DNA of 11,370 nt from an uncultured Flammeovirgaceae bacterium. GTDB lineage: Bacteria; Bacteroidota; Bacteroidia; Cytophagales; Cyclobacteriaceae. Position numbers and translations under genes: made by a program. The notes under the pieces are model-generated. The model was given only the letters and a program-made list of their open reading frames with translations, was not told the DNA's origin and made no database searches. The DNA is taken from contig CAKZPJ010000582.1 in assembly GCA_937138955.1 (NCBI GenBank), forward strand, positions 1-11,370. Reading direction: 5' to 3'. This document shows positions 1,919 to 7,615 of the stretch, one piece after another; within the stretch, counting starts at the first letter, position 1; every line of letters starts with the position of its first letter.

Positions 1919-2503
1919 GAATGTATCTAGTACTTCGTAGTCAATGGGTTTAAAGGAATAGTTATTTGATTGTTCGGCTGAGCAGGCGGTTAATCCTACC
2001 ACGAGATCCATTTCTGCTTTTAATACTACATAGTCACCAGCTTTAGAAAGGGGAGGGTCTACTGATAGCACACCATCTGGAGCAAATTGAACATTCATAA
2101 ATATATTGAATGCTGTAGGTATCTCATCGGGAGTGATACCGTATTTTTCTAAATTGGTATGCAAGTTCTCAAAGCAGCTAGGGTGATAATCGGTAGTGCC
2201 GTAGATAATTTTGAAAGTCTCAGGGCTGCAAGGGGCTAGCAAAAAATCGTTGCGTCCGTTCGTATCCTCAATTATCTCAAACATAACACTGCTCCGATTA
2301 CTGTATAGCGAGTGCCCTTTCGTAATTAGCAATGTGTTACAGTAGTCTAGCGTTTTTCCAGACGAAAGCCACTCCTTTTTGTCATGCTGATTAAAACAAA
2401 CCATATCCGAAACCTGCTCACCAGTAGGGTCGGTTACCCGTAGGTACTGGCCTTTTTTCACTATAAAAGCGGCCCCTGATTGCGGGGCTATCCGATTACT
2501 CAT
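1916..2503 (-). CDS. DUF1989 / urea carboxylase-associated (UAAP) family protein
   Basis: A 195-residue cytosolic protein if started at the ATG at 2503-2501. The open frame extends to 2590, but that extension lies inside the upstream gene in another frame. The ATG gives MSNRIAPQSGAAFIVKKG, a normal DUF1989 N-terminus, and overlaps the upstream stop in ATGAGTAA, an arrangement typical of translational coupling. Family features: VKKGQYLRVTDPTGEQVSD (15-33), HPSCFENL (107-114), NIFMNV (133-138) and a late Cys/Asn segment CSAEQSNN (174-181); His107, Cys110 and Cys174 are candidate metal ligands. Family members next to urea carboxylase (UAAP1/2, CgdAB) were shown to be carboxyguanidine deiminases, but here there is no carboxylase and only one subunit, so that exact activity is unlikely. 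Its partner is the YqcI/YcgG protein. A role on a guanidino or ureido product is inference. Confidence 0.85.
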   Translation of the reverse strand: MSNRIAPQSGAAFIVKKGQYLRVTDPTGEQVSDMVCFNQHDKKEWLSSGKTLDYCNTLLITKGHSLYSNRSSVMFEIIEDTNGRNDFLLAPCSPETFKIIYGTTDYHPSCFENLHTNLEKYGITPDEIPTAFNIFMNVQFAPDGVLSVDPPLSKAGDYVVLKAEMDLVVGLTACSAEQSNNYSFKPIDYEVLDTF

Positions 2504-3185
2504 CACGATTATCTTGGTGTAAAAACGGACACTTCCAGGCTGAAGAAACTTTTCGGCCACTGTACTGCCGCGCTTCGGTAATAGTACCAAAGTCGGCCGC
2601 CATCGGATTAATTTGACCTTGTAGGCTTTGGTCTCGCTCTCTAATAACTTTTCGCATCTTTTGATATTTACCTTCCGCCTTTAAAATGTCAAATTGACTA
2701 TGCAGGTTAAACACTAAAGCAGGATTGGTAAACCTTCGAGCCAAGCGCGAACTGTTGGCGTGCAACCCAATGATAAAAAAGGCAGTTTTAGCAAAGCTAA
2801 ATCCAAATTCTTTACTATCAGGATCATGAGAAACCGAAGAATCCCACGGCTGATCGTCTAGGCGATGTAAGACAGATAATTGCTGCCAGAGAAGTTTCTC
2901 GAAGCGCTTTTCTTCCATTGATCGTGGCTGCTCAAAGATTGCAACAAATGTTGTAAAGTTACTGTCTAAAGTTTCTCTTTCTGCAATAAAATTGTGAAGA
3001 TCTGGTGCCATTGTTTCGGCTGCTTCAGTACTGCCTAGCTCGTTATAATAGCCCATTCGGTAGACATTGGTATTAAATGCGGCTTTAGCCCCCAAACAAG
3101 GATATTGTTGGTTTAGCACAACGCTCCTAAATTCCTCTTCAATAGAGGAAGGAACTGATTTTGAATGAGTTTCGGTAAAATTCAT
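2496..3185 (-). CDS. YqcI/YcgG (GntA-type) heme-dependent N-oxygenase family protein
   Basis: A 229-residue protein from an ATG at 3185, full length for the YqcI/YcgG family. Visible family signatures in order: YPCLGAKAAFN (28-38), FGFSFAKTAFFIIGLHANSSRLARRF (127-152, in two runs), FNLHSQFD (159-166), IRERDQSLQGQINP (181-194), DFG..TEARQYSGR (198-211) and the C-terminal WKCPF (217-221). Cys30, Cys219 and the histidines at 142 and 162 are the conserved-looking heme or metal ligand candidates; I cannot decide which is used. The characterised relative GntA is a heme enzyme that N-hydroxylates a guanidino group in guanitoxin biosynthesis; most other members are uncharacterised. No signal peptide, so probably cytosolic. 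It is the first gene of a two-gene operon with the DUF1989 protein, its stop codon lying inside the start region of that gene. Substrate not known. Confidence 0.85.
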   Translation of the reverse strand: MNFTETHSKSVPSSIEEEFRSVVLNQQYPCLGAKAAFNTNVYRMGYYNELGSTEAAETMAPDLHNFIAERETLDSNFTTFVAIFEQPRSMEEKRFEKLLWQQLSVLHRLDDQPWDSSVSHDPDSKEFGFSFAKTAFFIIGLHANSSRLARRFTNPALVFNLHSQFDILKAEGKYQKMRKVIRERDQSLQGQINPMAADFGTITEARQYSGRKVSSAWKCPFLHQDNRDE

Positions 3186-3659: not shown

Positions 3660-4328
3660 CTAGCGTTTGGCTAATGCGATCATGTCCTTAGGATTTATTA
3701 TATCTTTCTCGTAACCACCCACGGTAGCTTGAATCATAGCTAATCCGATCTGAGTAGTACTTACCACATAATTGGGTACAAGGATTTTTACGGCCTTCAC
3801 GAGCCACATGAAGTAGTCGTACATAAACTGGTATCCCTTTGTGCGGGACTTTATCCCCCGAAGAGGTAAGAGAACGCCGGGGCGAAACATAAATGCCTGC
3901 CGGAAGCCCATTTGAAGTATATCATTTTCAGCTTTACCTTTTACTCGAGCCCACATCATACTGCTCGTTTCCGAAGAGTCGGAACCCTGACCTGAAACAA
4001 AGATAAAAGTCATTTCCGGATTATTTTTATAGAGTACTTCTGCCAGTGCCATCGTATACTCGTAAGTAATTTTGCGGTACTGATCTTCCTTCAGCCCAGC
4101 AGCACTAATTCCTAAGCAGTAGTAGCAGGCATCATAACCTACTAAACTTTCCTTCATTGAAGTAAAGTCGGAGAAATCTTGGTGAAGAATTTCTTTAAGC
4201 TTATGATGGGTTATTCCGACAGGGCTTCGACCAAAGGCTAACACCTCATTGATGGCTTCATGGTCTAAGCACTCGAGCAAGACTCCTTTGCCAATCATGC
4301 CTGTAGCCCCCGTAATGATGACTTTCAT
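3660..4328 (-). CDS. Atypical SDR, NAD(P)-binding protein (TIP30/HTATIP2-like)
   Basis: A 222-residue cytosolic Rossmann-fold protein from an ATG at 4328. The nucleotide-binding glycine motif TGATGMIGKG is at 6-15, with a phosphate-contact arginine likely in AFGRSP (31-36). The middle has CLGISAAG (71-78) and VSGQGSDSSE (111-120), and the segment WARVKGKAEN (126-135) holds the lysine usual in this branch, followed by RPGVLLP (149-155). This matches the atypical SDR subgroup that includes human TIP30/HTATIP2 and many bacterial 'epimerase' proteins of about 215-225 residues. The classical YxxxK pair is not obvious, so enzymatic activity and substrate are open. It is the last gene of a run of minus-strand genes, 74 bases downstream of the broken HD-hydrolase gene, and may share its transcript. 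Confidence 0.8.
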   Translation of the reverse strand: MKVIITGATGMIGKGVLLECLDHEAINEVLAFGRSPVGITHHKLKEILHQDFSDFTSMKESLVGYDACYYCLGISAAGLKEDQYRKITYEYTMALAEVLYKNNPEMTFIFVSGQGSDSSETSSMMWARVKGKAENDILQMGFRQAFMFRPGVLLPLRGIKSRTKGYQFMYDYFMWLVKAVKILVPNYVVSTTQIGLAMIQATVGGYEKDIINPKDMIALAKR

Positions 4329-7066: not shown

Positions 7067-7615
7067 CTATTCTTCCAACAGCGCAGGAGTATCTAGCAAA
7101 GGATCGGGATTATAGAGTGCTTGGTACCAGGCAACAGTAGAGGCGTACCACGTCCAGATATTAAGCGGTAGATAGGCTCGAGCCAATTGCTTATCTCCTT
7201 CACGAGCTAACTGATAGCTACGTAAAGCAACCAGTGCATCGCCTTGGGTCCAAAGGGCAGCCAGCCAGGGGCTACGCTTGCGAAAGTATACCCAGCCAAA
7301 CGTTACGAAGATCAACCAATGAACTCCCTGCAAACGCAGCAGTGGCTGACGATTAGGAAAACGCTTAGGGGAATTGAGCAGACGGAGGGCCGCCCAAATT
7401 AGCGCAATATTATTCAGTGGCCAAGCCACGCCAAATAGCCAAGAAGGCGGCGACCAAGGGGGCGTTTTCTGAGACTCGTACTGCTCATCTGATTGCTGAG
7501 GATCACCACCACTTAAGCGACCAAGAATACTCGCTGCTATTAGGAAAAGAGCACCTTGCCACCAAGTAAACTTTTTCTTGCGGGAGGTCGATGAAAAAAT
7601 AGGATTCCGTTTCAT
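7067..7615 (-). CDS. TspO/MBR family membrane protein
   Basis: A 182-residue protein from ATG 7615 with a basic N-terminus (KRNPIFSSTSRKKK) and about five transmembrane segments (roughly 18-34, 57-79, 98-113, 117-136, 146-168). The segment KTPPWSPPSWLFGVAWPLN (50-68) matches the TspO signature KPxWxPPxWxFxxxW, and YLPLNIWTWYASTVAWYQALYNPD (148-171) resembles the last helix ending in N-P. TspO proteins bind tetrapyrroles and other ligands and are linked to stress and porphyrin handling. The helix 3 region (GVHWLIFVTFGWVYF) is diverged from the usual N..W.p.FFG pattern, so ligand binding may differ. Expressed from its own start; 91 bases separate it from the ABC ATPase gene upstream. Confidence 0.75.
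   Translation of the reverse strand: MKRNPIFSSTSRKKKFTWWQGALFLIAASILGRLSGGDPQQSDEQYESQKTPPWSPPSWLFGVAWPLNNIALIWAALRLLNSPKRFPNRQPLLRLQGVHWLIFVTFGWVYFRKRSPWLAALWTQGDALVALRSYQLAREGDKQLARAYLPLNIWTWYASTVAWYQALYNPDPLLDTPALLEE

Follow-up and report, generated by a model that had tools for sequence, protein, structure and literature searches.

The YqcI/YcgG and DUF1989 genes of the window

The window, i.e., the whole stretch of 11,370 nts analysed here, carries on its minus strand a GntA-like gene of the YqcI/YcgG family (2496-3185, 229 aa), which matches PF08892 with 210 bits (cut-off 27). It is followed on the same strand by a DUF1989 gene (1916-2503, 195 aa), which matches PF09347 with 205 bits (cut-off 27) and runs from an ATG at 2503 to a stop at 1916. 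The start of the DUF1989 gene lies within the end of the YqcI gene, and the overlap of 8 bases (2496-2503, minus strand, ATGAGTAA) claimed in a preliminary description of this DNA was confirmed. The list of open reading frames also offers a longer DUF1989 frame, starting with a TTG at 2590, but the ATG at 2503 is favoured because the six closest database proteins (P0001-P0006) are 195-196 aa long. The assembly, which is 94% complete, contains one PF08892 and one PF09347 copy, the latter a lone DUF1989 gene as had been claimed. A related Flammeovirgaceae MAG encodes a YqcI protein 82% identical and a DUF1989 protein 95% identical to those of the window, with the same overlap of 8 bases.

The pair stands apart from its surroundings, since its downstream neighbour on the plus strand (627-1892) is convergent with it, ending 23 bases short of the DUF1989 stop, and the next upstream gene on the minus strand (3660-4328) lies 474 bases away. 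The product of the convergent gene is acyl-CoA ligase-like (PaaK/F390-like) and scores under all NCBIfam cut-offs listed. The window also encodes a TspO/MBR family protein (7067-7615; PF03073, 58 bits), a member of a tetrapyrrole-linked family, at a distance of about 4 kb from the gene of the predicted heme enzyme.

Conservation, possible transfer and fusion of the pair

The distribution of both genes was followed in two overlapping genome samples, one of the phylum (395 genomes) and one of the order (291 genomes), both including the genome of the window. In the phylum sample, YqcI was found in 9 genomes (9 loci) and DUF1989 in 10 (11 loci). In the order sample, 11 genomes have YqcI over cut-off, at 12 loci, and exactly these 11 also have DUF1989, again at 12 loci. 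Most genomes of both samples have neither gene. When each locus is counted once, DUF1989 lies directly behind YqcI on the same strand in all 20 over-cut-off loci, which belong to 19 genomes. One further genome of the order sample (G506) has a YqcI match of 20 bits, under the cut-off, and no DUF1989. The sole genome with DUF1989 and without YqcI (G154) carries two tandem DUF1989 copies and, roughly 2 kb from them, a urea/guanidine carboxylase, which is the known Cgd arrangement. Among 31 loci including the window, the two genes overlap in 25, are spaced by 3-7 bases in 4 and by 32 and 161 bases in the remaining 2, these counts depending on the start codons chosen by the script.

Both domains also occur in one chain. 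A search with a joined YqcI and DUF1989 query gave 984 matches, the best 120 of which were examined and contained 96 new proteins; 60 of these map to both domains, with YqcI first in 60/60, and 45 are complete. The source names of the fusions include Nannocystis, Chondromyces and Legionella, while those on contigs without an organism name may be artefacts of gene calling or sequencing. In trees that combine 22 of the 45 complete fusions with 18 two-gene loci and 2 outsiders, at least 3 (DUF1989 tree) or 4 (YqcI tree) changes of the fused state fall on well-supported branches, and 6 or 7 are counted by parsimony. A single change, as judged from these trees, does not explain the pattern, and the changes could be gains, losses or both.

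Conserved adjacency or fusion had been set as a check by the preliminary description, and the pair passed it. The 20/20 adjacent loci and the 60 two-domain proteins in one order point, as plain counts, to a pairing beyond chance. Adjacency, fusion and co-occurrence point to a functional link between YqcI and DUF1989 in an undescribed two-step reaction. In the open-licence literature searched under YqcI, DUF1989 and other family names, none of the papers listed names both families.

The two proteins also vary together. Over 32 loci, pairwise distances of YqcI and DUF1989 correlate with r = 0.83, a raw value not set against a null for shared ancestry. The Hymenobacter locus and two of the 14 records from plasmids described below do not enter this comparison. 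Several groups recur in the separate YqcI and DUF1989 trees, and the six alphaproteobacterial copies have the same Bacteroidota group as neighbours in each tree, a pattern compatible with joint transfer of the two genes. The rows of the window, Deinococcus and L075 change place between the trees, and this partial agreement counts against a two-step reaction shared by the pair.

A tblastn search of plasmids with YqcI returned 43 records, of which 17 share 37-47% identity with the query and the other 26 no more than 29%. With DUF1989, 505 records were returned, and among the 60 listed, 14 are at least 53% identical and the next is 36% identical. By coordinates, all 14 of these DUF1989 places at 53% or more (among the 60 of 505 listed) lie directly behind a YqcI gene of the same record, in Bacteroidota, Deinococcota, Alpha- and Betaproteobacteria. 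Judged by these identities to the protein of the window (at least 53%, then 36% for the next plasmid match among those listed), the cassette DUF1989 is a distinct subfamily. Three of the 17 closer plasmid YqcI genes (one in Rahnella and two in Streptomyces) have no DUF1989 partner, which counts against the two-step reading because it implies that the GntA-like heme enzyme has a use outside the pair as well. As for the 26 distant YqcI records, no annotated DUF1989 was seen in the 5 neighbourhoods inspected (0/5), plasmid annotation being incomplete.

Several loci deserve a separate mention. In the Rahnella plasmid (L027, 5923-11208), the GntA-like gene without DUF1989 lies among SDR, 2Fe-2S, LysE, tRNA-ligase-like and MOSC genes, a run which looks like a separate biosynthetic cluster. 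In the Hymenobacter plasmid (L030, 6683-7248), the DUF1989 match follows an open YqcI frame and is split between two reading frames, owing to a frameshift or a sequencing error. The record MT836826 of a phage collection (L109, 5687-7116) contains a YqcI-DUF1989 pair with the overlap ATGA beside bacterial-looking genes and is probably a mislabelled actinobacterial fragment. The ycgG-ycgH-ycgI genes of B. subtilis may represent a looser version of the pair.

Predicted active sites and known relatives

The YqcI protein exceeds the PF08892 cut-off, adopts an AglA-type fold in its structure model and has a Cys near its N-terminus, as found in the YqcI/YcgG heme N-oxygenase family. This residue, Cys30 (codon at 3096-3098, minus strand), is the predicted axial heme ligand and is invariant in 33/33 cassette YqcI proteins, 8/8 other YqcI proteins and 45/45 complete fusions. 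The heme ligand of the family is described as a Cys in AglA (Cys44, PMC12866846) and in ChmN (Cys47, PMC10849742), Cys30 being equated with Cys44 of AglA as the invariant Cys and not by residue-level structure alignment. AglA, GntA and ChmN are reported as guanidine N-oxygenases (PMC12866846, PMC10849742), and AglA, the argolaphos N-hydroxylase, is said to hydroxylate the internal guanidine nitrogen of AMPn-Arg in an antibiotic pathway (PMC12866846). The YqcI protein of the window is predicted to be a thiolate-heme guanidine N-hydroxylase. AglA, the one relative for which a solved structure was found, differs from it in that antibiotic setting and shares 18-20% identity with it; at this distance the guanidino substrate is an inference, a point against the two-step reading.

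Among the closest known systems is GntA, whose profile (NF041366, cut-off 145) gives 290 bits with the YqcI protein of the window, within the same PF08892 family and with the same predicted Cys ligand, a likeness measured by profile score. It gives 247-290 bits in all 7 cassette and fusion YqcI proteins tested, including 4/4 fusions, 223 bits for the solo Rahnella copy and 67 for the distant Priestia copy. Many plasmid YqcI genes are annotated as gntA of guanitoxin biosynthesis. Unlike GntA, the cassette enzyme is partnered by DUF1989, and no toxin-type cluster was recognised in the window or the annotated plasmid pair loci, NF041366 being the only gnt model applied; "GntA-like" is therefore the better reading for cassette genes. 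Since NF041366 also covers the fusions tested and the solo Rahnella gene, its name looks too narrow, and if the two-step reading holds, the automatic label "guanitoxin biosynthesis" on these genes is probably misleading.

The DUF1989 protein scores over the PF09347 cut-off, and its structure model has the DUF1989 fold and matches DUF1989 structures. Its predicted metal ligands are Cys92 (codon at 2228-2230, minus strand), whose counterpart in the alignment with the Tdm-like comparator is also a Cys, Cys110 (2174-2176, minus strand) and Cys174 (1982-1984, minus strand). Each is present in 32/32 cassettes and 45/45 complete fusions, as is the invariant Asp33. With these residues, the protein is predicted to be a metal-dependent enzyme that cleaves C-N bonds. 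The fourth position of interest, His107, is found in 32/32 cassettes but is kept in 29 of the 45 complete fusions and replaced in 16, so that the predicted metal site is not uniform, which again counts against the two-step reading.

Alternatively, in a complex of both proteins, DUF1989 could be a structural or substrate-binding partner and YqcI the sole catalyst. A fixed complex would fit the gene overlap and the fusions, and the three Cys are missing from the UAAP1 comparator and one G154 copy, so that the DUF1989 fold can serve without the site. The invariance of the three Cys and Asp33 throughout the cassettes and complete fusions argues the other way. In addition, DUF1989 is the more conserved partner (mean pairwise identity of 59% vs 43% for YqcI over the 32 loci compared) and is therefore unlikely to be a mere accessory. 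Overall, a purely non-catalytic role for DUF1989 seems quite improbable.

Two kinds of DUF1989 enzymes serve as comparisons. The first are UAAP1 and UAAP2, which we take to be models of the CgdA/CgdB carboxyguanidine deiminase. UAAP2 belongs to the same family and keeps all three metal Cys; however, the protein of the window scores 119 bits against UAAP2 (cut-off 285) and 113 against UAAP1 (cut-off 206), and its assembly has a single gene where CgdA/CgdB has two DUF1989 subunits. The cassette proteins also carry an Asp where CgdA/CgdB has Lys or Arg. This Asp53 (codon at 2345-2347, minus strand), a possible contact for a cationic substrate, is specific to the cassette type, being present in 32/32 cassettes and 45/45 complete fusions while six comparators have K, R, R, A, K and L; its loop is poorly modelled (pLDDT below 50 at 51-57). 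Cgd proteins are described as acting on carboxyguanidine (PMC12508155). The urea/guanidine carboxylase profile TIGR02712 is over its cut-off in G154 but in 0/19 cassette genomes, all 19 of which have partial matches under the cut-off. The absence of a urea carboxylase, as claimed earlier, is thus borne out at this threshold, and the carboxyguanidine pathway was rejected on the same count.

The second is Tdm, in which a DUF1989 domain with Zn held by three Cys is described together with a GcvT domain, and which cleaves a C-N bond of an N-oxide, converting trimethylamine N-oxide to dimethylamine and formaldehyde (PMC12560246). The DUF1989 protein of the window resembles it (phmmer E 3.6e-19 to 9q59) and shares the three-Cys site and His107, whereas the solved chain has 793 aa with a GcvT domain and the window protein has 195 aa with PF09347 only. 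An assignment as Tdm itself was rejected (NF053776, 92 bits vs a cut-off of 1100, no GcvT domain).

Tdm nevertheless suggests another outcome, namely an N-dealkylation, in which YqcI would hydroxylate the internal (alkylated) nitrogen and DUF1989 would split the alkyl C-N bond to give guanidine and an aldehyde. The DUF1989 domain of Tdm is reported to release formaldehyde from an N-oxide (PMC12560246), AglA to act on an internal nitrogen (PMC12866846), and the MgdH-MgdL pair, made of other enzymes, to free guanidine by a hydroxylase and a lyase (PMC12508155). The three Cys and His107 are common to the cassette and the Tdm-like comparator, UAAP2 having Gln and the haloarchaeal copy Glu at position 107. 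Against this, His107 is replaced in the 16 complete fusions mentioned above and is also present in the Klebsiella DUF1989 of another context; moreover, neither a guanidine riboswitch match near the cassettes nor an over-cut-off guanidine carboxylase that would use the freed guanidine was found. An N-dealkylation is held to be somewhat unlikely.

A candidate two-step reaction and its context

The best explanation is that YqcI N-hydroxylates a guanidino compound and that DUF1989 then cleaves a C-N bond at the guanidine carbon, a proposal whose chances are put at about even. In the first step, the thiolate-ligated heme of YqcI would draw on O2 and on electrons supplied by a reductase of the host to form an N-hydroxylated guanidino compound. 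In the second, the three-Cys metal site of DUF1989 would break a C-N bond of this product, with hydrolysis at the guanidine carbon as the likeliest route. Gene overlap and recurrent fusion point to a direct transfer of the intermediate from one protein to the other or to a need for both in a fixed ratio, and the cassette would constitute a portable, stand-alone module. This two-step reading is backed by the 20/20 and 14 plasmid adjacencies, the fusions, the distance correlation, the conserved Cys and the model matches, and further by the lack of an over-cut-off carboxylase in the 19 cassette genomes, by family chemistry and by the genes beside the cassettes, among which no recurring third gene was found.

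In D-cycloserine biosynthesis, a YqcI-type hydroxylase is likewise followed by a metallohydrolase, the arginase-like DcsB, which acts on N-hydroxyguanidine. There, the second enzyme is arginase-like and not a DUF1989 protein, and the pair belongs to an antibiotic cluster. The hydroxylase of this pathway, DcsA, is described as YqcI-type (PMC8976061).

The order of genes and domains leaves the order of reactions unfixed. DUF1989 could act first and provide YqcI with its substrate, which might also be something other than a guanidine. YqcI members with published activity are, however, reported to act on guanidines (PMC10849742, PMC12866846), and these variants are considered rather improbable.

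If the proposed hydroxylation and cleavage are true, YqcI/YcgG enzymes would play a general part beyond antibiotic and toxin clusters and one DUF1989 subfamily would function without a carboxylase. Two partly understood enzyme families would thereby be tied into a concrete two-enzyme reaction, encoded by two adjacent genes in Bacteroidota, Deinococcota, Alpha- and Betaproteobacteria and, going by the names of the sources, as a single chain in Nannocystis, Chondromyces and Legionella.

Regulation was addressed in the regions around the cassettes. Neither the window nor 30 other cassette loci gave a match to any Rfam family, guanidine riboswitches included, which counts against the two-step reading. 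The motif GGAAC-N16..18-GTT occurs 45-54 bases before the YqcI start in 3 of the 8 alphaproteobacterial loci on plasmids (L032, L033 and L034). At its rate of 5e-5 per base (both strands, 8 loci), finding it in at least 3 of 8 loci within 100 bases has P ~7e-6, a value that is only indicative because the strictness of the motif and the search distance were adjusted in the course of two scans; the looser first scan had given 4/6 alphaproteobacterial and 0/4 other loci. The motif is that of the general-stress promoter of EcfG, described as GGAAC-N17-20-GTT (PMC6599016) or GGAAC-N16-CGTT (PMC7083833). Judged from this motif, the cassette is probably switched on by general stress in some Alphaproteobacteria.

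A more speculative extension, which appears unlikely, is that the cassette is a widespread, stress-linked counterpart of nitric oxide synthase spread over two active sites. The heme enzyme would form an N-hydroxyguanidine from a common metabolite, e.g., arginine or agmatine, and the metal enzyme would cleave it with no second oxidation. The product, either a small and reactive nitrogen compound (hydroxylamine or an N-hydroxyurea) or guanidine, would serve as a stress signal or protectant.

Stress-type genes were noted among those flanking the cassettes (catalase, KGG, LigD, Hsp20 and PRC-barrel), an observation uncorrected for background. Other DUF1989 subfamilies were seen beside M20 metallohydrolase and cupin genes in a Klebsiella plasmid (L088, 3625-6221) and near an agmatinase and a Zn hydrolase in Halalkalicoccus (L087, 4998-10026), contexts which suggest further ureide or guanidino routes.
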